Shown one piece after another: positions 2,524 to 63,037 of a DNA stretch of 64,000 nucleotides. Source of the DNA: Peribacillus asahii (GTDB lineage Bacteria; Bacillota; Bacilli; Bacillales; DSM-1321); NCBI RefSeq assembly GCF_004006295.1, contig NZ_CP026095.1, positions 1,846,001 to 1,910,000 of the forward strand, read 5' to 3'. Positions within the stretch are counted from its first letter, which is position 1. Each line of letters opens with the position of its first letter. Position numbers and translations under genes: made by a program. The notes under the pieces were generated by a model. It did not search any database, had not been told where the DNA came from, and was given only the letters and a program-made list of their open reading frames with translations.

Positions 2524-3819
2524 ATGAAGGTACTATCCAAATTGAAGAAACGAATGAACAAAGTTTTGACAGTAAATCCGGCAGCAGGGGAGATAAAGGT
2601 AAGCGATTCAGAAATAAAAAAACAGCTAAAAATGATTGATTTAACAGAGAATGACCTCCGTATCATTTTTGCGTTCGGAGAAGTCATTTATGCCCAAATT
2701 GATGAACTTTTGGATGGCTTTTATCAAGCGTTATTGGAAGTTCCAGGGTTAAAGTCAATTATTACGAAGCATAGCACAATAGAACGCCTGCGTTCTACAT
2801 TATATACACATATTGTTACATTATTTGAAGGTGTTATTGATGATTCTTTTGTCGAAGCCCGTCTGCAAGTAGCTAAGAGCCACTATCGGATTGGTTTGGC
2901 ATCGCGTTGGTATTTGTCCGCGTTCCAAAGCTTACAAAATTCAATGTTATCATTAATCTATACATACGTACATAATGAAGAAGAGCAACGCGCTGTAATC
3001 TTTGCTATTACGAAAATACTAAGCTTTGAACGGCAATTAGTTATTCAGGCTTATGAAATGGAAAATCTGAAAGCACGTGAAATAGAATATGAAAAAGTCA
3101 AAAAAGATGTACAACGTCATATTTTAGGGATAAGTGAGGAATTACTCATATTAAGTGAAGAAACACATACTTCAATTAAGACGCTAGGGTTTAACGGTCA
3201 GGAGTTAGAGGACATTGTTAGGATTCAAACGGAACAGTCGACTTATTCTAGAATGAGTGCCGAAGAAGGGCAGAGGTGCATGCTTCAACTAAAAACCAAA
3301 TTATATGAACTGGTTGTATTTATGAATCATGTAGATCAAAATATTCACTCGTTGAATTCGTCCTTGCAGCAAATTACGGAGTTTGTTCAAATTGTTCAAT
3401 CTATTGCGAATCAAACGAATTTACTATCATTGAATTCAGCTATTGAAGCAGCTCGTGCAGGTGAACATGGAAAAGGGTTTGCCGTTGTAGCAAATGAGGT
3501 AAGAAAATTAGCGGATCAAACGAAAGAATCTATTGCGCAAATAGATGCTATTGTTCAGACATCAAACGGTTATATGCAAAGTGTGCTTCAATCTGTTGTA
3601 GAAGTGAAAGAAGTGATGGAATTGGGAGAAAGAGAATCTACTGTAACGGTCGAATCTTTCGATAAGATTCTTGAATCGGTGGAGAAAGATGTTGTTGGAA
3701 TGAATAAAATTAAGCAAAATATTCATTCATTTGTGATGGTTATTGATGAAATTAAAGGTGTAACAGAAAAGGTGGCATCTCAGGCGGAAACATTGAATCA
3801 GACAGCCGCAGAGTTATAA
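2524..3819 (+). CDS. HemAT-like globin-coupled chemoreceptor (paralogue 1)
   Basis: This 431-residue cytosolic methyl-accepting receptor has a globin-sensor domain at about residues 35-190 and a chemotaxis signalling domain to the end. The putative distal Tyr67 and proximal His120 keep the 53-residue spacing known for HemAT Tyr70/His123, so haem and oxygen binding is plausible. The signalling tip is [20 protein letters not shown], slightly divergent from the usual [16 protein letters not shown]. No membrane segment is present. GGAGGG precedes ATG 2524. A second and more canonical HemAT lies at 61736, so this copy may sense a different gas or range. It is inserted between yneR and plsY, which are adjacent in B. 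subtilis. Confidence 0.85.
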
Positions 3820-21570: not shown

Positions 21571-23028
21571 ATGGCAACGAAATATACCGATGACAGCTAT
21601 ACATTACACACTGATCTTTATCAGATTAATATGGTTCAATCTTACTGGGAAGATAACATTCATAATCGAAAGGCCGTATTTGAAGTTTATTTTCGAAAAT
21701 TACCTTTTAAGAGTGGCTATGCTATTTTTGCAGGGCTGGAGAAAATCGTTCATTTTTTAGAACATTTCAGTTTTACAGAAAGTGATATCGATTATTTACG
21801 AACATTGGAGTACGATGAAGCATTTCTTACGTACTTAAGCGGGCTGCGTTTTTCAGGAAACTTACGTTGTATGAAAGAAGGAGAACTTGTTTTTGCGAAT
21901 GAGCCGATGTTACGAGTGGAGGCACCGCTTGGAGAAGCTCAGCTTATTGAGACTGCTCTGCTTAATATTGTGAATTATCACACACTTATTGCAACGAAGG
22001 CATCACGTATTAAGCAAGTGCTTGGGGATGAGCCAGCGCTTGAATTTGGTTCACGTCGCGCTCAAGAAATGGATGCGGCTATTTGGGGAGCACGAGCGGC
22101 ATATATTGCTGGATTTGATTCAACAAGCAATGTTCGTGCAGGTAAGTTATTTGGAATTCCTGTTTCAGGGACACATGCTCATTCAATGATTCAAGCGTAT
22201 AAAGATGAATATATAGCCTTTCATAAATACGCGAAAACACATAGAGATTGTGTGTTCTTAGTCGATACATACGACACCCTTCGTTCGGGTATTCCAAATG
22301 CGATTCGAGTCGCTAAGGAATTAGGCGATCAAATTAACTTTATTGGCATTCGTTTAGATAGCGGCGACCTTGCTTATTTATCAAAAGAAGCACGTAAAAT
22401 GTTAGACGAAGCTGGTTTTCCTGAAGCAAAGATTGTCGCTTCTAATGATTTGGATGAATATACTATTATCAATTTAAAACAGCAGGGTGCATGTATTGAT
22501 GTTTGGGGAATCGGAACGAAGCTTATTACAGCTTATGACCAACCAGCGCTAGGAGCGGTTTATAAAATGGTGGCGATGGAAGAAGAACATGGTGAACTGG
22601 TGGATACGATGAAAATTTCATCTAATCCAGAAAAGGTCTCTACACCAGGGCTGAAGCGCATCTATCGAATTATTAATAAAATTAACCACCATGCTGAAGG
22701 TGATTACTTGACGATGGAGGATGAAAAGCCGCAAGAAGAAGAGAAATTAAAGATGTTTCATCCAGTGCATACATTCCTTAGTAAATTTGTGACTGATTTT
22801 GATGCGGTCGATTTGCATGAAGATATTTATGAGGATGGTATATTAGTTTATGAATTGCCAGCCATTGAGGACATTAAAGCTTTTTGTAAGCAGAATTTAC
22901 AAGTACTTTGGCCAGAATACTTACGCGCGTTAAATCCGGAAGAGTATCCAGTCGATTTAAGTCAGAAATGTTGGGATAATAAAATGAGAAACATCGCAGA
23001 AGTACAAGCCAAAATGGTATCTAAATAA
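21571..23028 (+). CDS. pncB: Nicotinate phosphoribosyltransferase
   Basis: This 485-residue enzyme converts nicotinate, PRPP and ATP to nicotinate mononucleotide for NAD salvage. It starts MATKYTDDSYTLHTDLYQIN, the typical family N-terminus, and has FGSRRAQEMDAAIWGARAAY. The phosphorylated-histidine motif is GIPVSGTHAHSMI. GGGAGG lies before the ATG. nadE follows after 20 bases, so the pair runs nicotinate toward NAD as one operon. Confidence 0.95.
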   Translation: MATKYTDDSYTLHTDLYQINMVQSYWEDNIHNRKAVFEVYFRKLPFKSGYAIFAGLEKIVHFLEHFSFTESDIDYLRTLEYDEAFLTYLSGLRFSGNLRCMKEGELVFANEPMLRVEAPLGEAQLIETALLNIVNYHTLIATKASRIKQVLGDEPALEFGSRRAQEMDAAIWGARAAYIAGFDSTSNVRAGKLFGIPVSGTHAHSMIQAYKDEYIAFHKYAKTHRDCVFLVDTYDTLRSGIPNAIRVAKELGDQINFIGIRLDSGDLAYLSKEARKMLDEAGFPEAKIVASNDLDEYTIINLKQQGACIDVWGIGTKLITAYDQPALGAVYKMVAMEEEHGELVDTMKISSNPEKVSTPGLKRIYRIINKINHHAEGDYLTMEDEKPQEEEKLKMFHPVHTFLSKFVTDFDAVDLHEDIYEDGILVYELPAIEDIKAFCKQNLQVLWPEYLRALNPEEYPVDLSQKCWDNKMRNIAEVQAKMVSK

Positions 23029-23048
23029 TGCAGAAAGAGGGTAAGTAG

Positions 23049-23879
23049 ATGCGTCCTTTACAGTCAGAAATTATTAAAAAACTGTTAGTTCAGCCTACAA
23101 TCGATCCTAAAGTAGAATTCAGAAAAAGTGTGGATTTGCTGAAAGATTATGCAAAGAAATATTCATTTATCAAAAGTTTTGTACTTGGTATTTCTGGAGG
23201 ACAGGATTCCACTTTATGTGGTTATATCGCTCAAACAGCAGTGAATGAATTAAATGAAGAAAAGAATACAAATGAATATCAATTTATTGCAGTGAGTCTG
23301 CCTTATGGTGTACAAGCAGATGAAGATGATCGTCAGGTGGCTTTACAATTTATTAAGCCAAGTGTGAATGTGACGGTAAATATTAAAGCGGCTGTTGACG
23401 CTTCAATACAAGCGGTTGAAACAGCTTCTGGCCAGAAATTATCAAACTTTTTAAAAGGTAATACAAAAGCACGTGAGCGAATGAAAGTACAATTCGATTT
23501 AGCAGGTATTTATAAAGGCGTTGTACTGGGGACCGATCATGCCGCAGAAGCAGTAACTGGATTTTTTACGAAGTTTGGTGACGGAGCAGCTGATTTAGTT
23601 CCACTTTACCGTTTAAATAAACGACAAGGTAGAGAAATTTTGAAATATTTACAAGCTCCTGAACGTTTATATTTAAAAGTACCAACAGCGGATCTTGAGG
23701 ATGACAAACCGTTAGTACCAGATGAAGCGGCATTAGGTGTTTCCTATGAGGAAATCGATGATTATTTAGAAGGCAAAGACATTCGCATAGAAGCAGCGGA
23801 AATTATTGAAAACTGGTACACAAAGACGGAACATAAACGAAATGAACCGATTCATGTATATGATACGTGGTGGAGATAA
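23049..23879 (+). CDS. nadE: NH3-dependent NAD synthetase
   Basis: This 276-residue enzyme amidates nicotinic acid adenine dinucleotide to NAD. The PP-loop is [15 protein letters not shown] at about residue 42, and [28 protein letters not shown] is the substrate-binding block. The short length means no glutaminase domain, so ammonia is used directly. It is co-transcribed with pncB and closed by its own terminator. Confidence 0.96.
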
Positions 23880-23891
23880 GAAGAAATTATC

Positions 23892-23927
23892 AAACTGACC
23901 TGGCTTATATAAGCAGGTCAGTTTTTT
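23892..23927 (+). terminator. Terminator of pncB-nadE
   Basis: AAACTGACCTG pairs with CAGGTCAGTTT and a T run follows; the inner loop GCTTATATAAGC is itself self-complementary. Confidence 0.9.
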
Positions 23928-24384
23928 GAATTAGCAGACCATTTCACTTCTTACTTATGCGGTTTTAAGCATCCTGTTCTTTTTCTTTTATCTATGTTTT
24001 AAATCAATGTTGAAATTTGATATAATTTCGTGAAATTAACATAGCAACAAGTTTCTTTTAGATAGAGGCATAAAATTTTTGACTGCATAAGAGTATTTTT
24101 TGGTACAGGCTCTGTTGAAAGTTTTAAAGGTACAAAACCTTCTAAAAGGCTAAGAAAATCTCGTAAAAGAGGTAAGCAGGTTAAAAAGAGAGGTATAATG
24201 AATAGGTTTAATGGTGTTATAACTGTAACTATATGTACTGATTCAAATGACTTGAACTGTTTGAAAATGATAAAGAAGCAATAAAGGTAAAGAACTTTAT
24301 GGTTCAATGTAATGTAGCCTATGCTTATACAAAAACAGCAGATTTTAAAGAAAGAGAGCTAATATTTGTAAAGGAGATTGAGGT
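23928..24384. other. Intergenic region with short broken reading frames
   Basis: Lysine/arginine-rich short frames (around 24105-24280) look like decayed coding sequence, but I recognise no family and see no intact gene. The ribosome site for the next gene (AAAGGAGATTGAGG) lies at the end. Confidence 0.35.
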
Positions 24385-25014
24385 ATGACAGAATTTTGGG
24401 AATCAAGCTTTATAGAAAATCAAATGATGTGGGGATTTGAGCCTTCAGACTCCGCAATCTTGACAAAGGACTTTTTCCTTGAAAAGAAAGTTAAGGATAT
24501 ATTGATTCCTGGTATTGGATACGGTAGAAATGCAAAGGTTTTTATTGACAACGGAATACATGTAACAGGTATTGAGATTTCAAAAACAGCAATTGAATTG
24601 GCAAGGCAAAATGGACTTAATATTAGTATTTTTCATGGTTCAGTAACCGATATGCCTTTTGATAACAAACTTTATGATGGTATATTTTGTTATGCACTTC
24701 TTCACTTATTGAATAATCGTGAGAGAGATAAGTTTATTAAAGATTGCTATGATCAATTAAAGCCAAACGGATATATGGTTTTTACTACTATTTCTAAAGA
24801 AGCCCCAATGTTTGGAAAGGGAAAACAACTGGATAAAGACTATTTCGAGATAATGGAAGGGGTAAAAATGTTTTTTTATGATTCTGACTCGATAAAACAA
24901 GAATTTGGAAAATATGGACTGATAGAATTTTCGGAAGTTGTTGAGCCACATAAGAATATGGAAAATAAACCTCCATTTAAATTTATAATGGTAAAATGTC
25001 AAAAAGAACTATAA
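24385..25014 (+). CDS. Class I SAM-dependent methyltransferase
   Basis: This 209-residue Rossmann-fold methyltransferase has the SAM motif ILIPGIGYGRNAKVFIDNG with the acidic residue of motif II in VTGIEISKTAIELA. The N-terminal WESSFIENQMMWGFEPSD resembles the thiopurine/tellurite-type methyltransferases. The substrate is not evident. A strong AAAGGAG site precedes the ATG. It stands alone and its base composition is very AT-rich, which may point to transfer. Confidence 0.8.
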   Translation: MTEFWESSFIENQMMWGFEPSDSAILTKDFFLEKKVKDILIPGIGYGRNAKVFIDNGIHVTGIEISKTAIELARQNGLNISIFHGSVTDMPFDNKLYDGIFCYALLHLLNNRERDKFIKDCYDQLKPNGYMVFTTISKEAPMFGKGKQLDKDYFEIMEGVKMFFYDSDSIKQEFGKYGLIEFSEVVEPHKNMENKPPFKFIMVKCQKEL

Positions 25015-25285
25015 TTACAATTGCATAAAAATCAGAAATAGTGAATGGTTAATTGATACGGCTTATGTGTAACCATTCATTAAGGCCTTTAAGTGCTTAT
25101 GCATTATTATTAAAGGGCGAATTAAGGGAAGTCAAAGGGCTTTCCTTAAAATCGCTTAATTTTCAACAATATTTTAAAACATAGCCTTTCTTTTAAAACC
25201 GAAAAGAGGACGAAATGATTGAAACTCTATAAACTTGGTGTAAGATATATAGATATGAATACTTTTGATAAAGGATGAAGACAAC

Positions 25286-25459
25286 TTGAATAAACTTGGC
25301 TGGATTATATCGGGGCTTGGTGCTTTACTGATTTTTAGTAGTTTGCTTTACCCGCTAGACGTTATTGAAAAAAACACATTTTTAGTTCTTTTATTAGGTG
25401 GGGCAGGTATTATGTTTGTAGGAACAATGATACGTGCTTTTTTAGGAAATAAGAAGTGA
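25286..25459 (+). CDS. Small two-helix membrane protein (57 aa)
   Basis: The protein has two hydrophobic helices (about residues 4-22 and 31-50) and a basic tail AFLGNKK. TTG 25286 follows AAGGATGAAG with good spacing; the earlier TTG at 25265 precedes that site. A terminator lies directly downstream, supporting a real transcript. Family and function are not recognised. Confidence 0.6.
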   Translation: MNKLGWIISGLGALLIFSSLLYPLDVIEKNTFLVLLLGGAGIMFVGTMIRAFLGNKK

Positions 25460-25461
25460 AT

Positions 25462-25499
25462 AAAAATAGCTTCTAGGTCATGCCTAGAGGCTATTTTTA
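25462..25499 (+). terminator. Terminator of small membrane protein gene
   Basis: A 16-bp stem (AAAAATAGCTTCTAGG with CCTAGAGGCTATTTTT) and a 5-base loop end in T residues. Confidence 0.85.
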
Positions 25500-25807
25500 T
25501 TTAAACATTTGGTGTCCAATATAAAGGAGCCGCGTGCAAATCGTGTTTATAGGTGTACGCTATAAGTAATACTACAAATAAAAACAAATATTTTTAGTTT
25601 CTACATTTCTTGTTTTTAATATTGTTTAAATTGTCGAGACTAAAGGAAAAAGATATTGACAGGTAATGATGGGATGTAGTATTTTACATTGGGTTATCAA
25701 AAAATATATCGAAATAATATCTTGGGAAATGATAAAAAAGAAGTAATTTAGCAGTCGTCTGCTTTTATCGAATATGCAAAATGGGTAAGAAGAAAGGACG
25801 TTTATAT

Positions 25808-26542
25808 ATGAAAGTTGTTACACCTAAGTCATTTATGTATAAGGGCGGAGAAAGAGCCGTTCTTTTATTGCATGGTTTTACTGGAAATACAGTGGATGTG
25901 AAGAGGCTAGGGAAATATTTAAATGATCGAGGATATACATGCTATGCTCCACTTTATAAGGGACACGGTCTTACTCCAGAAGAGCTCATTGAGACAAATG
26001 TTGAAGATTGGTGGCAAAGTGTAGTAGAAGGGTATCAGTTTTTAAAAAGTCAAGGATATGAGCAAATAGCTGCAGTTGGTTTATCTTTAGGTGGCGTGTT
26101 TTCATTAAAGTTAGCTTATAATTTCTCAGTAAGTGGAGTTGTTACGATGTGCTCTCCTATGTATCAGAAAAAAGACGAAGCGATGCAAAAGCGTGTGATT
26201 GATTACGCCTCTAATTATAAAAAGTTTGAAGGGAAAAGTGAGGAAACTATTGAGGCTGAAATGGCGGAGTTTCAAAAGGTTCCTATGAATAATATTTTAA
26301 CAATTAGAGATTTTATTTTGGATGTGCAAGAAAACTTAGATCAAGTGTTTGCTCCTTTATTTGTAGCTCAAGGACGTCTAGATCATACTATTAATTTAGA
26401 GAGTGTAAACAATATATATAACGGTGTTAATTCATATGAAAAAGAGCTGAAGTGGTACGAAGAATCTGGCCATATTATAACGCTAGGCCCAGAACGTGAA
26501 CAATTATATGAGGATATTTATGAATTTCTTGAATTGCTGTGA
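25808..26542 (+). CDS. est: Carboxylesterase, Est30/YvaK type
   Basis: This 244-residue alpha/beta hydrolase is close to Bacillus thermostable esterase Est30. The oxyanion strand reads AVLLLHGFTGNTVDVKRLGKYL, the nucleophile is Ser93 in GLSLGG, the acid is in AQGRLDHTI, and the catalytic histidine is in ESGHIITLG. ATG 25808 follows AAAGGACG, while the reading from 25781 overlaps it. In B. subtilis the homologue lies in the secG-rnr region. It is monocistronic here. Confidence 0.9.
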   Translation: MKVVTPKSFMYKGGERAVLLLHGFTGNTVDVKRLGKYLNDRGYTCYAPLYKGHGLTPEELIETNVEDWWQSVVEGYQFLKSQGYEQIAAVGLSLGGVFSLKLAYNFSVSGVVTMCSPMYQKKDEAMQKRVIDYASNYKKFEGKSEETIEAEMAEFQKVPMNNILTIRDFILDVQENLDQVFAPLFVAQGRLDHTINLESVNNIYNGVNSYEKELKWYEESGHIITLGPEREQLYEDIYEFLELL

Positions 26543-26567
26543 CATGTCCTAATTGTATAGATGTAAG

Positions 26568-26600
26568 AAGGTGCAAATCTCGGGTTTGCACCTTTTTTAT
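26568..26600 (+). terminator. Terminator of est (near-duplicate of 29121-29153)
   Basis: GGTGCAAA and TTTGCACC with a T run. The same stem and tail recur after the MCP gene with only three loop differences. Confidence 0.85.
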
Positions 26601-27061
26601 GCATGGATAAACTTTACTTAGTACTTGAATTATCTGTTGCATAAGAGCTTCTTCATATTTTTAGGCAATAGCTTTATTTATTAATAAAATGGATTCCTAT
26701 TATGAAAGCCTTTAAATCGTCAGTGGAAAAATAGAAATATTTCGCTTCATCAAATGAACCCTGTTAGTACTTAAATAATATAGAATTAGAATTTAATTAT
26801 TTAAGAAAATAAATAAAATGGGTAAAAAGTCATGAAAAATTAGCTTCTGATAAGGTTTATAAAGTAATAAATAAGGTTTATACTCTGAAAAGAGTAAAGA
26901 AATAAGAATATACACTTAGTTAGCATAGATTTTATATAGAGTATAAATTGCCTTTTATTTTTTTCTATATATTATACATAAATAGTTAAATGAAGAGGGG
27001 TTTTAGGTGATTTATAGCAAATTCAACAAGTTAAAACTTAAAAAGGGGGGGAAGGTTTTTT
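26601..27061. other. AT-rich upstream region of the acyltransferase-MCP pair
   Basis: About 460 bp of very AT-rich DNA with no open frame. It probably holds the promoter of the pair. I could not find a sigma-D -10 (GCCGATAT) here. Confidence 0.4.
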
Positions 27062-27613
27062 ATGTACAAACTTGTAAAGAGTCAAAAGGAGCGAGACCTA
27101 TTTCATCAAATCAAGAAATCTGTTTGGGATGAAAAAGGGTTTGATATGGAATATGGGAAAGAAAGCTCAGACCTTTATCTTATTTATGCAGAAGATGGTG
27201 TACCGGGTGGAACATTCGAGTTTACTTCATATTCAAGATTCACCGCACCTATTATGAAGGAATTATTTAATGATGTTATTCAAAAAGATATGAGAGTTAT
27301 GGAAATAGATAGTTTTGCCGTGTTACCCCAATATCGCGGGAAACTTGGGCGTCAAATTATGTGTTTAGTGATTGATTACGCTCAAAAAAATGGATATACA
27401 CATGCTATTGGTATTAGTGATCCGGCTGTTTTTCGTTCTTTTAACAATACATATCAAATTAGAACGATTCAAGTAAAAGAGAAAATATGGTACAAAGGTG
27501 CAGAGGTTATTCCAGCACTATTACATCTTAAAGAGGCTTATGACAATATAGAAGATGAAAAATTTTCATGGTTTACAAGACCAAATGAAATGAGAAAAGG
27601 TGTATTTATATGA
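27062..27613 (+). CDS. GNAT/acyl-homoserine-lactone-synthase-like acyltransferase
   Basis: This is a 183-residue soluble protein. The GNAT acyl-donor loop is visible as [17 protein letters not shown] (residues 84-100, R92-G93-K94-x-G96-R97). The N-terminal half resembles the LuxI/FeeM autoinducer-synthase plan: VW at 21-22, an acidic patch, then [20 protein letters not shown] and EIDSFAV in place of the usual E-x-SRFAV. A GGGGGGGAAGG site precedes the ATG. The stop overlaps the start of the next gene by 4 bases (ATGA), so the pair is translationally coupled. Function is inferred only: an acyl or acetyl transferase, substrate unknown. Confidence 0.6.
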
Positions 27614-29082
27614 GCAAATCTGAGTTATTACAAAAAAGAAATAATTGGGTAGTTTTGGTCTTTGGAGGGACAATAGCTGTTCTTCAGTTATTGAATTTTA
27701 GCTTAGGAATACCTTTAAGTTTTGTCATGTCTGTAATTGGAATTTTAGGAGGGATACTGGCCCCTGTTACTTTTATAGCGAATAAGACAAAATTTAAAGA
27801 GCAATTGGCTGTCCCAATGAAATATTTTAACCTTATTATTATCGGGGTATTTTGGTTTACGATTCTTTCATTAGACCCTCACATGATTAATATTATGTTT
27901 ATGTTTTTCTTTATAGCAGTTATGGGGATTTATCAAGATAAACTGATAAATATTCTTACTCTTGTTTTTACATTAGGCATTTTAATCTATTATTTTGTTA
28001 CACAGGGTGAGGTCATATTTCACTCAACTAATTATCAAGACTTACTGTATTATATTCTTACTTTCTGTTTTATATCTATCGCTTCTTTTATGCATTCTAT
28101 GTTTAATAATAAAATGCAGGAAGAGATAGAATTCCAAAGAGAAGAAGCGGTTCAAGCCAAAGAATTTACGGAAAATATTTTAAATAAAATTAGTAGTTCA
28201 TTAGATTCCGTGAAATCTTATCAAGACGATTTAAACAAAACAACAGAACAAGCAAGTTTACAATCAACGGAGATTATAGAATCTATTAAAACAATTGTTC
28301 AGTCATTTGATGTTCAAACAGCACAATCGAATGAATTAGTAGCTGGAACTAATTCAACAAACTTGCAAGTAGAAGATATGACGAAATCTATTAGTGAAAT
28401 GAATGATTATCTTGATTCCACACAAGAAGCAACAAAAGAGAGTGAAAAAAGAATCGATAATCTTGGAAGTGACCTGGAAAATTTTAATGGAAGCATTCAA
28501 AAAACGATTCACTTTATGCAGGAGTTACACTTAGAAACGGAAAATATCGAAAAAATTATTCAAACCATTTTTGATATTTCCGCTCAAACGAATCTATTAG
28601 CTTTAAATGCATCCATTGAAGCGGCGAGAGCTGGTGATGCAGGAAAAGGTTTTGCTGTAGTGGCTAATGAAGTTAGAAAACTTGCTGAATCTTCAAAAGA
28701 ATCTTCTGAATCCATTTCACAACTTCTTTTGTCCATCAAGGAAAGAGTCTCTTTAGCATCCAATACGATTGCTGAATCTCAAAAATCTATTGATAAAAAT
28801 AGAGAAGGTATGGAAGAAGTTAGATCTATTTTTAATAATGTGGATGTATACATGAATAATTTGATAGAAAAAACAGAAAATCTTCAAGACTTTATTTTGA
28901 CTGTACAAGGAATGATGCAGGAGGTAGAAGCTAAAGCTAAAGAAAGTGTAAGTATGACAGAAACAAACAAGCAAAGCCTTCACGATGTACTAGAACTAGT
29001 TTCAAACCAAGATGAAGAAATTTCTTATTTATCAGATGGGGCTAAAAATATCGAGCATAAATTACAAGAATTACATCGATGA
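27610..29082 (+). CDS. Methyl-accepting chemotaxis protein with a six-helix membrane sensor
   Basis: A 490-residue chemoreceptor. About six hydrophobic helices occupy residues 12-180 with very short loops and no extracellular ligand domain or clear HAMP. A cytosolic MCP signalling domain follows, with the tip [20 protein letters not shown] and flanking coiled coils. Such receptors must sense within the membrane or through short loops. It is coupled to the upstream acyltransferase by a 4-bp overlap. The architecture recalls membrane-embedded autoinducer receptors such as CqsS, but only in outline. Confidence 0.85.
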
Positions 29083-29120
29083 ATCACTGTAATAGTTTTT
29101 AAGTGAATAAATCGATAAAA

Positions 29121-29153
29121 AAGGTGCAAACCTAGGATTTGCACCTTTTTTAT
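29121..29153. terminator. Terminator after the MCP gene, shared with the convergent gene
   Basis: AAGGTGCAAA and TTTGCACCTT with T and A runs on either side. It is nearly identical to 26568-26600. Confidence 0.85.
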
Positions 29154-29158
29154 ATGCC

Positions 29159-29872
29159 TTATTTATAAACTGTACTTGGTACGTGAATAACTGGATTGCC
29201 TACTGCGTAAGGGGCTACTTCATATTCTTGGAAAATTAAAGCAATCCCTTTATCTGTATAATAAAATTGGGTGTTTTTATCGACTTTAAAATCATCTAAT
29301 ATATAGCTCTCAAAAAAGATGTCTGGATGTTTCGACATATAACTCTTTACATATTTTGTGACTTTTGTATACTTTGCCTTGGATGTAAGAGTATCACTCA
29401 GTGTATAGTGCTTTCCTGTTTTTAAATTGAAATTATAGCTTGTGACTAAACCGGAACCGTGTGCACCGCCTGCGTACATCCAGTCAAAGATAAGAATACT
29501 GACTTTTCCGTTTTTATTATATTTCACTTTATAGCTTGTTGTGTAATCATATTGACAAGCATACGGGTACTCTTTACATAGCGGATCTCCTTGAAGTTCT
29601 TCCATATCCTTTTTTAGTTGATTATAGCTTTTATAGGACCCTTGAATATGCTTTAAAAGAACACTGTTAATTTTCTTTTGAGCGGAGGTGCTCTTTAATC
29701 CAGAGACTTGAGGGTATTTTAAAAACTGTTTACTCTTATATGTTTTCGTTATCACCTTAGCCTTTGTAGAGGACGCAGCATAAGCGTCATTAGAGGGCAG
29801 GGAAAAAGAAACGAACAACGCAAACATCATCAGCCAACAAATAATAAGCCTACTCCATTTGATGTTTTTCAT
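29159..29872 (-). CDS. Secreted DUF3298/DUF4163-type protein
   Basis: This 237-residue protein has a signal peptide (cleavage likely after AYA) and the paired pattern seen in RsiV and the N-terminus of PdaC. A KTYKSKQFLKYPQVSGL strand region comes first, then the hallmark YAGGAHGSG followed by FNLKTGKHYTLSD. No anti-sigma or deacetylase domain is attached. ATG 29872 follows GGAGG; the reading from 29884 overlaps it. A role at the cell surface, possibly lysozyme or wall binding, is inferred from relatives. Confidence 0.75.
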   Translation of the reverse strand: MKNIKWSRLIICWLMMFALFVSFSLPSNDAYAASSTKAKVITKTYKSKQFLKYPQVSGLKSTSAQKKINSVLLKHIQGSYKSYNQLKKDMEELQGDPLCKEYPYACQYDYTTSYKVKYNKNGKVSILIFDWMYAGGAHGSGLVTSYNFNLKTGKHYTLSDTLTSKAKYTKVTKYVKSYMSKHPDIFFESYILDDFKVDKNTQFYYTDKGIALIFQEYEVAPYAVGNPVIHVPSTVYK

Positions 29873-30007
29873 AAAAACCTCCAAGTTAATGATTTACTAA
29901 TTTGTATTATAAAGGAAAATATATCCTCTGTCACAGCACATGATAAGTTATCGATATTTTGTCTGTAAATAAAATATGCTTCTAAAAGGATTATGTTCTT
30001 TTAGAAG

Positions 30008-30202
30008 CTAGATAAATGGTTTGGAAGAAACAAATTTATTTTTCAGCTCTTCCTCGGTAATGGTCATTTTCCCTTGCAATCCTTCAGCTTGAAGAACAAA
30101 ATTTTTGATACCTAAAAATTCTGATTCCGCGATTATGAAAAATGTTGTTCCTTTGATAAAGTTTGTTCCTGGTAAGTCTCTAATTAATTGTACCTGTTTT
30201 AT
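30008..30202 (-). CDS. Possible small protein with near-cognate start (64 aa)
   Basis: The minus-strand frame reads KQVQLIRDLPGTNFIKGTTF then FIIAESEFLGIKNFVLQAEG, ending KFVSSKPFI. This is clean coding-like sequence with alternating beta and acidic segments. No ATG, GTG or TTG precedes it in frame; an in-frame TGA lies at 30209-30211. GAGGAG stands about 9 bases before an ATA codon at 30200-30202, which would encode residue 1. Alternatively a one-base change separated it from a GTG just upstream (minus strand). Family not recognised. Confidence 0.45.
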   Translation of the reverse strand: MKQVQLIRDLPGTNFIKGTTFFIIAESEFLGIKNFVLQAEGLQGKMTITEEELKNKFVSSKPFI

Positions 30203-31139
30203 TTGTGCTCACTCCTCGTGTGATTTAGACTATAATGTTATCATAATTGTCTTCTCGAGAACATTATACGAAGCGGTATTTTAGTGCTAGTAATTATCGA
30301 AGGGCCTATTGTTAGTTAATGAAGGGGCTAGATGAATGCTTATATTTGAAAAGTTGATGGATTTGTATACGAAAAATTCTAATGTTGAATAGGCTAAGTG
30401 GAGAACATTATCCTTACGCTTTGGAATGTAACTGAACGAAAATCTCAATATACAGCAATAGAGGCATTAAAGCATATTCAATGAACTAACGTGGTTGACT
30501 TTTAAGTTGGACAAGTTAATCATTTTTATTATTATTTTATCTGAATTTAAAATGGGGAACACTTGTCTTACTATTTGAATAATATATATAAGACGTAAGG
30601 AAGCACCTTGCGTCACCTTAGACTGACTATAAAAAGTCAGTCTCTTTTTTTGAACTTAACTTACTAAAATTTCATAGTTATTTTTGAGGAGGGTCTTGCT
30701 GAAAGGTGTGTGAGACCAAGGTTTCACACGAGTAGGACCAAAAATCAACAACGTCCTATAACCGAGCTTTTTGGAAAAGGAACAAAGAATAAGCTATCAA
30801 GATTTTAAATTATACTCAATATGAGTTTAACGAAGTAAAATAGAATCAAGCCTTTTTTCATTGATTTGTGATACTGTATTTGAAGAAGACGAACTAATGT
30901 TTATTCAATATAAGTTTGACAAATCAAGCAAAAGAAAAATTGATTTATTTTTATAGTGAATAGTATCAAACAGCACTGAAAAAATTATATAATTATATTG
31001 AACTGGTAATCATTTAGATATTGCGTCTTAGGAGAAATGTTACAACTTGACTCATGGATTACAATGTAAGTGAAAACTACTTACCGAAAAAGGTAATTTT
31101 ATAAAAAAAACAGAGAAGCAATGCCGTACGTCTAAGTTA
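30203..31139. other. Long AT-rich region without intact genes
   Basis: Short broken frames occur around 30340-30490 and 30830-31070. A T-run terminator structure at 30592-30651 shows that something was or is transcribed. A palindromic stretch near 30700-30735 (GTGTGTGAGACC / GGTTTCACAC) is the only other structure seen. Confidence 0.4.
30592..30651 (+). terminator. Tandem hairpins with T run, no obvious upstream gene
   Basis: GACGTAAGG/CCTTGCGTC is followed by AGACTGACT/AGTCAGTCT and CTTTTTTT. It may end a small untranslated RNA or be left from a lost gene. Confidence 0.65.
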
Positions 31140-31620
31140 AATCGTTATAAGGATAGAGGTTCGCTGACCACTCCCATGGCTAAAGCCGCTGGGGTTCTTT
31201 CTCACAAATATCCCACTTACCATCTTCCATAAGAAGAGACAGAGGCGAGACTTGGGTGAGCAACACTTGAGAGAAAAACAGTCCTTCAAGAGGGCAAGGT
31301 CGGTGCCAACTACGCCGTTCAATCGGCGATACTTGTCTAGGATTACGATACCGCACTCTTTCTATGAAGAGTGTTGGTCGGCAGAACGTTGAACATTTTA
31401 CATGACAGACGTTTTTCCTGTCACAACCACCTATGTTCAGTTTTCAAAGAATATCCTATATACCAAATTATACCATTTTTAACGTATGGTGTACAGAACG
31501 TATTTTCGATATTTTATCTGCACACCGCATTTGAGCGAGCATTCATCCCATCCTTAAAAAAGGGGGTGCCAGCGCACCGTAATGGGCTTTCTTTTCGCAA
31601 AATCTGTAATTTGAGGTGCT
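31140..31620 (+). mobile_element. Hairpin-rich non-coding segment, IS200/IS605 omega-RNA-like remnant
   Basis: Five or more stem-loops lie in a row: GGCTaaAGCC at 31184, GCCG...CGGC near 31313, CACTCTT...AAGAGTG at 31353-31372, TGACAG...CTGTCA at 31402-31424, and GGTGC...GCACC at 31565-31578. The phrases TGTTGGTCGGCAGAACGTTG and ACTCCCATGGCTAAAGCCGC look like omega-RNA/HEARO-type sequences of IscB/TnpB elements as I remember them. No transposase or nuclease gene is attached. The last 85 bases recur at 46639-46718. Identification is by resemblance only. Confidence 0.4.
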
Positions 31621-31623
31621 ACA

Positions 31624-34620
31624 ATGCTGGAATCAAAAAATACCAATCAAATATGTATGTTAGAAACTGATCTTAGGACTGCACTTGAAAAGAAAGAGTT
31701 TAGTCTCTGTTATCAACCAAGACTCCATTTGGATTCAGGGAAAATTAATGGAGTAGAAGCCTTGATTCGCTGGGAACATCCAGAAAAAGGGGTAATCTTA
31801 CCAGTAGACTTTATTCCTCTTGCTGAAGAAACAGGATTGATTATACCAATAGGTGAATGGGTATTGCGCACAGCTTGTGAGCAAAACAAAGCGTGGCAGG
31901 AAGCCGGTATATCCCCTATGGTGATGGCTGTTAACTTGTCCGTTCGTCAGCTTTATCAACCGAATTTAGTTGAGAGAGTACGGCTTATTTTAGAAGAAAC
32001 GGGACTTGCTCCTGAATATTTGGAACTTGAAATTACAGAAAATATAATGATGAATGTTCAGGATGTTCTTCCTGTCGTAAAGGAATTAAAACGTCTCGGT
32101 ATCCGGCTTAGTTTGGATGATTTTGGAACAGGCTATAGTCCTCTACATTATTTAAAAGAATTTCCTATTGATAGTATCAAAATAGACCAATCTTTTATTT
32201 GTAATTGTAGAGTAGATCAGAAGGATGCCACAATTGTAAAAGCTATTATTGCAATGGCTCACCAATTAAAGCTGGAAGTGATTGCTGAAGAGATTGAAAC
32301 GAAAGAACATTTAATTTTCCTTCAACAGAATCTTTGTAATATGGGGCAAGGCTATCTATTTAGTGAACCTTTACCTCCTGATCAATTGATACAGCAGTTT
32401 TATCAAATAGAACAGATTGTTCATCGAGAAGGGATTTCACAAGAATTCAGTAGACAAAAATGGTTAGAGGAAGAGTTAGAACAAGCACGTCAAGAATTGC
32501 GGGATACCTTAAGGCAGCAACAAGGGATGATGTTTAAATTTATTGAATATAATAAAAAATTTATTCATACCTTATGTGATGGGGAATTGCTGTACCGAAT
32601 GAATTTCACACCTGAACAAATCTTAGGAAAGGGACTACGAGATTTTCTACCTGATGATTTAGCAGAAAGAAAAGCTCATTATTATCGAAGAGCTTGGGAA
32701 AACAAGGAGAATGTTACCTACGAAGAGGAAGTCAATGGCGTTTGGTATCTTGCCTCTTTGCGTCCTGTCCAAAGAGGTGGAGAAGTAGTTGAAGTTATTG
32801 GTTCCTGTATTGATATTACCGAAAGAAAAGAAAGTGAAGAGCGATATCAAAAAGTAGTTGAATATTCTCCTAAAGGGATTGTCATTCATCGGGATGGAAA
32901 ATTTCTTTATGCGAATCCCTGCGCTTTGAAAACGATAAAGGAAGAGGACGTAGTAGGGAAAGAAATCTCCATCTGTCTTCACCCAGATTCTTATGAACTT
33001 TCTAAAAAGAGGCTAGCTCAAACTGAAGTGGGAGAAGAACTGCCGATAACAGAAATGAAGCTGATAGCACAAGATGGAGAAGTGATTGATGTCGAAATCG
33101 GCAGTGTGTCTATCCCTTATGGTGGAAGTTCGGCCATTCTAACTATGTATAGTGACATCACCGATAGAAAAAAGGCGGCACGAGACCTTGAAGAAAGTAA
33201 AGAACGGTATAGAAGGTTAGTAAATCTATCTCCAGAACCGATTGTCGTACACAGTCAGGGGATTATTAAATATATGAACAAAGCAGGAGTGAAAATTTTA
33301 GGGTTTACCCATCCTAAAGAATTACTTGGGAAGCCTATTTTAGATTTTGTTCATCCGGATGATCGAAAGATGGGGTTTGAACGGATACAATGTTTAGCAC
33401 AAGAAAACGAGAGTGAAGTCGAACTTTGGGAATATAGAATGATTCGTCCTGATGGAACAATCTTTTATGTGGAAGGTATAGCAACTGGAATTATGTATGA
33501 TGGAGAGCCGGCTATTCAAGGAATGTTCCGGGACATTACAGCAAGAAAAGAAGTAGAGGAAGCTCTCCGTCAAAGCGAAGAAAAATATCGCCTCATTGCA
33601 GAAAATATGCAAGATTTAATTGGCGTGTTGGATACAAAGTGTATAGTTCGCTACGCATCGCCCTCTCATGAGACTATATTAGGATTTCCAACTGATGTAT
33701 ATGAAGGGAATAGAGCTTTTGATTTAGTCCATCCTGATGATATTTCTTATGTGCAAACTCAGTATGAAAACTCAATTTCATCGAAGACACCTTGCTATAT
33801 TGAATTCCGATGTAAACATGTTAGTGGAGGTTGGGTCTATGTAGAGGCTTGGGGAACTCCTGTACTGGATGGAAATAATGAAGTTGAACATCTTGTCATA
33901 GTAGCTCGTGATATTTCCGAACGAAAAAAGGCAGATCAACTAATACGCAAATCAGAAAAACTTTCCGTTGCAGGACAATTGGCTGCGGGAGTAGCACATG
34001 AAATAAGGAATCCACTGACTTCGATAAAGGGATTTATTCAGCTATTACAAAAGGAAACAAATAACCCCTTGTATACGGATGTTATCTTGTCTGAAATTGA
34101 TAGATTAGAAGATATCGTTCAGGGTTTTTTATCACTTGCCAAGCCTCAAGCACCGCAAATGAAAGAAATAGATGGAAGGCTTCTTTTACAACAAGTGGTA
34201 CTTTTATTTGAGACACAAGCTTTATTGAAAAATGTTCAAATTGTGCAAGAGTATAGTGAAAATTTACCGCTTATCTATTGTGACGGAAACCAAATGAAAC
34301 AGGTGTATATGAACATTCTTCAAAATGCAGTAGAAGCTATGCCGAACGGAGGAGTCATTAAAATTCAGGTTCTTTGGCACAGTGCTGACTCTATTTTGTT
34401 TAGATTTATTGATCAGGGCCAGGGGATATCTAAAGAACGGATTAAAAATATTGGCGAACCTTTTTTCAGTACAAAAGAAAAAGGGACAGGACTGGGGCTA
34501 ATGGTTAGCCAAAAAATTGTCCAAGAACATGGAGGGACAATGGGTATAGACAGTACCGTTAATCAAGGAACTACGGTAGATGTTATTTTGCCGATTAAGC
34601 CTTCTTTTGTACGTGAATAG
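31624..34620 (+). CDS. EAL domain - PAS - histidine kinase fusion
   Basis: A 998-residue soluble signalling protein. Residues 12-260 form an EAL c-di-GMP phosphodiesterase domain with VEALIRWEHP, LEITENIMM, DDFGTGYSPLHYL and KIDQSF; one late motif is altered (AEEIET instead of AEGVET). Four PAS repeats follow (about 300-770), several ending DITxRK. A KinA-like kinase closes the protein: H-box VAHEIRNPLTSIKGF (His about 792), N-box MNILQNAVEAMPNGG, and G-boxes DQGQGISKERI and GTGLGL. It starts where GGDEF-EAL proteins would have their linker (LETDLRTALEKKEFSLCYQP), hinting at loss of an N-terminal GGDEF domain. GAGGTG lies before the ATG. Confidence 0.85.
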   Translation: MLESKNTNQICMLETDLRTALEKKEFSLCYQPRLHLDSGKINGVEALIRWEHPEKGVILPVDFIPLAEETGLIIPIGEWVLRTACEQNKAWQEAGISPMVMAVNLSVRQLYQPNLVERVRLILEETGLAPEYLELEITENIMMNVQDVLPVVKELKRLGIRLSLDDFGTGYSPLHYLKEFPIDSIKIDQSFICNCRVDQKDATIVKAIIAMAHQLKLEVIAEEIETKEHLIFLQQNLCNMGQGYLFSEPLPPDQLIQQFYQIEQIVHREGISQEFSRQKWLEEELEQARQELRDTLRQQQGMMFKFIEYNKKFIHTLCDGELLYRMNFTPEQILGKGLRDFLPDDLAERKAHYYRRAWENKENVTYEEEVNGVWYLASLRPVQRGGEVVEVIGSCIDITERKESEERYQKVVEYSPKGIVIHRDGKFLYANPCALKTIKEEDVVGKEISICLHPDSYELSKKRLAQTEVGEELPITEMKLIAQDGEVIDVEIGSVSIPYGGSSAILTMYSDITDRKKAARDLEESKERYRRLVNLSPEPIVVHSQGIIKYMNKAGVKILGFTHPKELLGKPILDFVHPDDRKMGFERIQCLAQENESEVELWEYRMIRPDGTIFYVEGIATGIMYDGEPAIQGMFRDITARKEVEEALRQSEEKYRLIAENMQDLIGVLDTKCIVRYASPSHETILGFPTDVYEGNRAFDLVHPDDISYVQTQYENSISSKTPCYIEFRCKHVSGGWVYVEAWGTPVLDGNNEVEHLVIVARDISERKKADQLIRKSEKLSVAGQLAAGVAHEIRNPLTSIKGFIQLLQKETNNPLYTDVILSEIDRLEDIVQGFLSLAKPQAPQMKEIDGRLLLQQVVLLFETQALLKNVQIVQEYSENLPLIYCDGNQMKQVYMNILQNAVEAMPNGGVIKIQVLWHSADSILFRFIDQGQGISKERIKNIGEPFFSTKEKGTGLGLMVSQKIVQEHGGTMGIDSTVNQGTTVDVILPIKPSFVRE

Positions 34621-61735: not shown

Positions 61736-63037
61736 ATGAAAAATTTATGGAAAAGAAATAAACCTACTGTCGATAGAGAATATTTTTTAACATATAAAAA
61801 TGATGTTCGAATTGATTTACATAAATACTCAAAGTTATTAACGCAAATTGAGATGATTCATTTAACACAAGAAGATTTATGCAGGATTCGTTCTATACAA
61901 GATACGGTTAATGATCATTTATCGGAGTTAGTGAGTCGTTTCTATGAAAATCTGGCAAAAGAACCTTCGCTAATGGAGATTATCGATAACAATAGTTCAG
62001 TTAGTCGATTACGACAATCACTTCAAAAACATATAGGCGAGATGTTTTTAGGTGTTCTTGATGATCAGTTTGTAGAACAGCGCTATACTATTGCTCATGT
62101 CCATGTTCGAATCGGCTTAGACCCTAAATGGTATATGAGTGCCTTTCAGGATCTGCTACAGTCTATATTAACGATTATTATGCCGACTTGTCATAGTGTA
62201 CAGCACTATCATGAAATGGCGTTAAGTATTACGAAAATCATTAATTTAGAGCAGCAAATTGTATTAGAAGCATATGAACTAGAAAATAAGCGTATTCGTC
62301 ATCAAAATGATAAAGAGAAAAAAGCGCTTCGTGTACAGGTGAATAACAACGCCGCGCAATTGGCTGCTATTAGTGAAGAAACGAGCGCAACGAGTGTTCA
62401 AATTGTTAATAAAGTGTCTGAGATTCATCAAATTACGGAAACAGGTTCAGAGATTGCGATTAAAACGGAAGAAAAGTCGAAAGAAGGTCTTCGACGTTTG
62501 AAAGCGCTGGAAGAATTAATGAATCAAGCACAGGATAATATGAAGTATATCGCTGCAGAAATGGAGCAATTAACTTCAACGTCTAAGGAAATTGAGCGGA
62601 TTGTTACGATGGTAACATCGATTGCTGAACAAACGAACTTATTAGCATTAAATGCAGCGATTGAAGCGGCACGAGCTGGAGAAAATGGAAGAGGCTTTGC
62701 CGTTGTCGCAGGTGAGGTAAGGAAATTAGCGGAACATACAAAAACCTCTGTATCGGAGGTTTCAAAGCTTGTCGAGGGAATTCGTCGGTATACAAGCACT
62801 ATGAATACGTCGATTTCTGTTGTAAATGAAGATATTAGGAAGAGTACACAAGAAGGGAAAGAGACGAGCCTCTTTTTTGATCAAATTGTTGAATCAATGA
62901 ATAATGTTAAAGAACAAAATATCAATATTGCTTCAGAAATGACAGAGTTAAGTAATATTTTTGAAGGAATGAACCAAGCATTTGAACAGGTTGCCCATTC
63001 TTCTGATGAATTAACACAAATGACGATGGTGCTATAA
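61736..63037 (+). CDS. hemAT: Haem-based aerotaxis receptor HemAT
   Basis: A 433-residue cytosolic oxygen chemoreceptor. The globin domain (about 30-180) keeps Tyr70 in VSRFYENL and the haem-ligand His123 in [19 protein letters not shown], the same numbers as B. subtilis HemAT. The signalling domain has the canonical tip [23 protein letters not shown] 61736 follows CGGAGG; the earlier start at 61712 overlaps it. GCCGATAT at 61642-61649 matches the sigma-D -10 consensus, but no TAAA is at the usual distance. It is probably the main aerotaxis receptor. Confidence 0.93.

Follow-up and report, generated by a model that had tools for sequence, protein, structure and literature searches.

Known pairs of a signal synthase and its receptor end in kinases, transcription factors or cyclic di-GMP (c-di-GMP) enzymes. 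Among the papers listed by literature searches for such a pair or for self-signaled taxis, judged by title and abstract opening and with subscription papers and preprints largely outside their reach, none describes a synthase paired with a dedicated chemoreceptor. Here, we analyzed a stretch of 64,000 nt from Peribacillus asahii (GCF_004006295.1, NZ_CP026095.1, positions 1,846,001 to 1,910,000, forward strand; hereafter, the window), in which the gene for a GNAT-fold, LuxI/FeeM-like acyltransferase overlaps the gene for a methyl-accepting chemotaxis protein (MCP). We propose that the two genes probably form a synthase-receptor pair, i.e., that the enzyme makes a signal sensed by its partner receptor.

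Among the closest described systems are CqsA/CqsS and LqsA/LqsS, the alpha-hydroxyketone quorum systems of Vibrio and Legionella, in which a synthase gene is paired with a receptor gene; CqsA and LqsA belong to an enzyme class unrelated to the GNAT enzyme considered here. Passages of PMC4821796 describe CqsS/LqsS-type receptors as six-helix membrane receptors that lack extracellular loops and recognize a lipophilic signal. The P. asahii locus resembles both systems in its putatively cognate six-helix receptor lacking extracellular loops, and it resembles CqsA/CqsS in a conserved synthase-receptor neighborhood (87 of 103 loci, see below), but the output of their receptors is a histidine kinase, whereas here it is an MCP or, in a related clade, a GGDEF-EAL protein.

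The enzyme shares its predicted fold with the LuxI-type acyl-homoserine lactone synthases (TofI, EsaI, LasI and BjaI); unlike them, it has no Autoind_synth match, and the gene beside it encodes an MCP or a GGDEF-EAL protein instead of LuxR. It also differs from FeeM (PF21926, PDB 2g0b), with 14% identity and a score under the Pfam cut-off, and to our knowledge no receptor gene is paired with FeeM. In Burkholderia, the diffusible-signal-factor synthase RpfF neighbors the GGDEF-EAL receptor RpfR, much as a synthase-like enzyme neighbors a GGDEF-EAL receptor in the related clade, but RpfF is a crotonase-type synthase and RpfR a cytosolic PAS receptor. Adenylyl-cyclase membrane domains have been reported as sensors of fatty acids and anandamide; a profile search of PDB sequences gave no match between the MCP and such domains (AC9, AC5 and Rv1625c) or ImcA, and its output is that of an MCP rather than a cyclase. 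We know of no synthase gene beside adenylyl-cyclase six-helix domains or ImcA, nor of a dedicated synthase beside genes for chemoreceptors of autoinducer-2 (AI-2). PctA and TlpQ are chemoreceptors for AI-2 (PMC7584622). The MCP putatively shares with these two the binding of a bacterial signal, but they have a dCACHE ligand domain and their signal is widely shared.

The overlapping gene pair

The enzyme gene (27062 to 27613, + strand; ATG start, 183 amino acids) was assigned as a putative signal synthase from its open reading frame (ORF), Pfam and a fold search, and the MCP gene (27610 to 29082, + strand; ATG start, 490 amino acids) as a putative receptor from its ORF and Pfam. The enzyme stop and the MCP start share an ATGA (27610 to 27613, + strand), and this overlap likely couples their translation. 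The nearest same-strand gene upstream stops at 26542, 520 bases before the enzyme, and a terminator-like hairpin with an A run and a T run at its sides (29115 to 29153) lies between the MCP gene and a convergent PdaC/DUF3298 gene; therefore, the two genes look like a two-gene unit that ends at the hairpin. The scan assigned the hairpin to the (−) strand, and each strand carries a T run. A first-pass annotation of this DNA had reported the 4-bp overlap, a GNAT acyl-donor loop in the first protein and, in the second, about six membrane helices without an extracellular domain, and all of these features are present (see also below).

Enzyme and receptor genes adjoin in related genomes

Searches with the closer of two enzyme profiles (A1) recovered the enzyme from 10 of 101 relatives, a count that includes the P. 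asahii genome itself, and from 25 of the 398 class genomes. The wider profile (A2), built partly from the surveyed loci, whose bit scores therefore lean upward, recovered it from 43 of the 299 order genomes and from 68 of 197 genomes of a family (f50) that we took as Paenibacillaceae, judged by its match to the Paenibacillus sp. NAIST15-1 locus. All matches of at least 98 bits plus some weaker ones were fetched, and identical enzymes were merged, giving 123 loci (L002, a 34% match on a Methanobrevibacter contig, and L160 to L190 were omitted); a limited number of first-look candidates was scored per genome, so that weak second copies can be missed. Searching up to 2 kb on the downstream side of the enzyme, we found a receptor in 87 of the 103 non-redundant loci scoring at least 125 bits with A2 (window locus included) and in 0 of the 20 weaker, remote relatives (<125 bits). 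Since the P. asahii genome holds only 13 MCP-domain matches in 4.9 Mb, this pairing, which recurs in many soil-type bacteria, exceeds chance. Homologues that are never next to an MCP, which the first-pass annotation had named as evidence to the contrary, are not what the survey returned.

Among the 87 paired loci, the receptor is an MCP of the window type (M1) in 27, including the named carrier Paenibacillus sp. NAIST15-1 (L001), an MCP of another type (M2) in 48 and a multi-helix GGDEF-EAL membrane protein (GG) in 12. GGDEF and EAL domains were confirmed in all four GG partners scanned, and the remaining GG partners were assigned by likeness to these. All M1 pairs (27/27; gaps of −224 to +28 by longest ORF) and all GG pairs (12/12) lie on the same strand, as do 40 of the M2 pairs; the other eight M2 pairs are convergent, with the receptor of one (L157) displaced 1.7 kb by insertion of a transposase-like ORF. 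Three genomes carry two pairs each, M1 plus GG in G009 and G029, and M1 plus M2 in G711.

Receptor type tracks enzyme clade

By hhalign, the membrane domain of M1 is homologous to that of M2 (98.4%; E = 8.3e-15; 176 columns), and that of GG shows no relationship to either (probability <1%). Receptor type tracks enzyme clade. Specifically, in an enzyme tree whose bootstrap is not fully settled, the enzymes paired with M1 form one clade (support 100/99; 27/27), those paired with GGDEF-EAL proteins form another (93/81; 12/12), and a clade of 57 (100/97) unites 48 M2-paired enzymes with nine that have no neighboring receptor, which reads as later loss of the receptor. Brevibacillus choshinensis carries an enzyme of the M1 clade (P0020).

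Reciprocal searches started from the receptor. In the class (398 genomes), the top 18 M1 domains (at least 299 bits) and the 18 enzymes of the M1 clade (at least 262 bits) come from one and the same set of 18 genomes, with weak M1 matches (~50 bits or less) in five further genomes. In the order (299 genomes), the top 10 GG domains (at least 485 bits) belong to the 10 GG-type enzymes (10/10), and among the 197 f50 genomes, 48 of the 49 M2 domains of at least 230 bits have the enzyme alongside, one of them (L157) at a distance.

Family and predicted fold of the enzyme

The enzyme scores above the Pfam cut-off for Acetyltransf_1 (PF00583; 28.1 bits, cut-off 20.7) and below that for FeeM (PF21926; 23.5 bits, cut-off 27), a label that one relative, P0011, bears as a precomputed assignment. 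PF00583 matched 24 of 24 A1 members at an E-value of up to 1, while at the same limit the Autoind_synth profile (PF00765) matched none of these 24 or of 20 A2 members. By sequence profile, then, the enzyme is not a member of the LuxI or FeeM family. Its acyl-donor loop (QYRGKLG, residues 90 to 96; 27329 to 27349, + strand) is degenerate compared with the canonical GNAT Q/RxxGxG/A, and R92 and G93 of the loop are invariant across the A1 and A2 alignments. E81, ahead of the loop, is likewise an invariant residue.

The best predicted-fold neighbors of the enzyme are the autoinducer synthases TofI, FeeM, BjaI and LasI, and the fold search placed it with both the LuxI-type GNAT fold and the FeeM fold; 160 to 177 of its residues aligned with TofI, LasI, BjaI and RpaI. 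A plain GNAT, SACOL1063, tied with the autoinducer synthases in Z, but the LuxI/FeeM-type folds cover more of the enzyme. The LuxI/FeeM likeness proposed in the first-pass annotation thus stands for the predicted fold but not for the sequence profiles. That annotation had named placement in a ribosomal-protein or antibiotic acetyltransferase family as the contrary outcome; synthase folds were nearest, with SACOL1063 tied. No LuxR-type regulator was found by Pfam among six nearby ORFs of the window (21571 to 34617), the adjacent gene being the MCP.

Predicted six-helix membrane domain of the receptor

The second protein scores well above the cut-off for MCPsignal (PF00015; 115.3 bits, cut-off 34.6), with the signaling domain at residues 293 to 417 by its best Pfam stretch (28486 to 28860, + strand), and its Pfam matches include no known ligand-binding domain. 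Residues 1 to 185 (27610 to 28164, + strand) comprise a membrane domain and the start of a cytosolic helix, and are the putative ligand site. In the AlphaFold model of this part (mean predicted local distance difference test score, 89.7), six membrane helices, one of them kinked, are joined by short loops, which argues for an MCP without an extracellular domain; a simple hydropathy scan gave only five peaks. The fold resembles that of adenylyl-cyclase membrane domains, and profile A6 found no cyclase among PDB sequences at an E-value of up to 10, with weak DUF4118 matches in 13 of 28 members.

The P. asahii genome also has three CheW-domain matches besides its MCPs, and ORFs that look CheA- and CheB-like by eye adjoin a CheW, so the window MCP has a pathway to signal into. 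Separately, f50 contains a subfamily of six-helix MCPs without an adjacent enzyme (L171, L173 to L186 and similar; 28 rows, ~165 to 197 bits with profile A4), which may read the signal of other cells.

Sigma-D-like promoters

We scanned for sigma-D-like sites of the form TAAA, 14 to 16 bases, GCCGATAT, with at least 10 of 12 positions matching. Such sites lie upstream of 25 of the 75 MCP-paired enzymes versus 9 of 293 control ORFs, which were mechanically chosen from the same loci, the rows being related and not independent. By group, the counts were 5/27 for M1, 20/48 for M2, 0/12 for GG and 1/16 for enzymes without a neighboring receptor. The NAIST15-1 enzyme has an 11/12 match, and the best match of the window enzyme, at 9/12, falls under the threshold. 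These sites would place many of the MCP-paired enzymes in the motility regulon, of which the GG-paired ones give no sign.

Proposed mechanism and alternative explanations

The signaling role suggested by the first-pass annotation is partly supported: the gene pair, the predicted folds, the conserved pairing, the clade-fixed receptor type and sigma-D-like promoters ahead of a third of the MCP-paired enzymes are observed, whereas we infer the reaction, the product, its binding by the receptor and the direction of taxis. A small-molecule link would account for the association of one enzyme family with membrane sensors of two unrelated kinds and with two kinds of output, for a receptor devoid of any extracellular domain and for the agreement between partner type and enzyme clade. 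In the synthase-receptor reading, the enzyme would most likely transfer an acyl chain onto a small amine, presumably an amino acid or a comparable compound, and the amphipathic N-acyl product would exit the cell or partition into membranes and bind the six-helix domain of the partner MCP. The resulting change would run down the cytosolic helix to CheA and bias swimming according to how much of the self-made signal is present locally; in the GG clade, a signal of this kind would control c-di-GMP through the GGDEF-EAL receptor. To a more specific form we give somewhat less than an even chance: the FeeM/LuxI-like enzyme makes an N-acyl amide that the six-helix chemoreceptor, folded like the lipid-sensing domains of adenylyl cyclases, reads directly, and the same enzyme family also feeds a GGDEF-EAL receptor.

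Several observations weigh against an obligate synthase-receptor pair. Of the 103 enzymes, 16 have no neighboring receptor. Three of these 16 belong to A2. Just past the 2-kb limit, L048 is accompanied by an ordinary MCP of a different type, and L046 (G018, near a contig end) and L047 (G002, which also carries an M1 pair) form a fourth enzyme clade, from the window's own genus, with no receptor alongside. In G703, G714, G732 and G738, a neighborless enzyme is accompanied by a related receptor without an enzyme on a separate contig. From the receptor side, the next GG domain (312 bits) has no family enzyme alongside, G758 holds the one M2 domain of at least 230 bits without an enzyme, and 52 M2-profile rows of at most 197 bits are not beside an A2 enzyme match, with no enzyme ORF in any of the 17 of these loci that were fetched. 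Based on these reciprocal counts, linkage to the enzyme holds for the closest receptors but does not extend to the receptor family at large.

Three other explanations appear less apt. It is unlikely that the enzyme acetylates or acylates the receptor or another signaling protein (on lysine or the N-terminus) with no diffusible signal, since partners of this enzyme family have membrane domains of two unrelated kinds and equally unrelated outputs (no search was aimed at a target segment common to them), and fold coverage favors small-molecule synthases. Less likely still, the enzyme makes a wetting agent (surfactant), membrane lipid or other motility metabolite, and the MCP is merely co-regulated and senses something else; the sigma-D-like promoters, which would place both genes in the motility regulon, agree with this, as does the FeeM-bound ligand N-dodecanoyl-tyrosine, an amphiphile according to passages of PMC9654057. 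Such co-regulation fails to predict the fixation of partners by clade, the 18/18 reciprocity or a GGDEF-EAL partner whose units have a sigma-D-like site in 0/12. Finally, detoxification or tagging of an outside compound by an amine or antibiotic acetyltransferase, with the MCP sensing the same compound, is improbable, as the tie with SACOL1063 and a weak match of 1 of 20 A2 members to an aminoglycoside acetyltransferase model (0.025) are set against the greater coverage by LuxI/FeeM-type folds and a receptor whose lack of an extracellular ligand-binding domain suits a hydrophobic ligand.

Neighboring genes and remote relatives

Outside the two-gene unit, 520 bases upstream of the enzyme, lies a gene for a carboxylesterase-like alpha/beta hydrolase (25781 to 26542, + strand) whose substrate could be an ester or amide signal. 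Downstream, a 998-amino-acid ORF (31624 to 34620, + strand) has an EAL domain at its extreme N-terminus followed by several PAS domains, HisKA and HATPase. It thus joins a phosphodiesterase-type domain to a sensor kinase and may be what is left of a longer protein. The window has two other MCP genes, at 2524 to 3819 (+ strand; 431 amino acids, HemAT-like or globin-coupled in look, judged by eye) and at ~62522 to 62998 (+ strand).

Remote GNAT relatives (60 to 82 bits; L076, L083, L085, L086, L088 and L089) lie, by eye, in another recurring neighborhood, with lasso-peptide-like precursor ORFs adjoining L076 and L083 and Wzz-like chain-length ORFs adjoining L083, L085, L086, L088 and L089. In two related genomes, G047 and G528, remote enzyme-like genes (L082 and L087) are 2.4 to 3.7 kb from a weak GG-type membrane domain, with genes between, perhaps by coincidence.

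Biological implications

If the enzyme and the MCP are a synthase-receptor pair, cells would navigate by a private lipid of their own making, and one signal chemistry would feed flagellar steering or c-di-GMP, with G009 and G029 carrying both channels. The pair would represent a Gram-positive acyl-signal system, and a bacterial chemoreceptor would join the lipid-receptor idea for adenylyl-cyclase membrane domains. Passages of PMC3012674 describe attractive and repulsive chemotactic signaling between cells in Paenibacillus vortex colonies, the molecule being unnamed in those passages, and passages of PMC5072692 report that moving colonies of Paenibacillus sp. NAIST15-1 alter their behavior with rising density. 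The pair would then provide a molecular candidate for the self-signaling proposed to shape Paenibacillus colonies.
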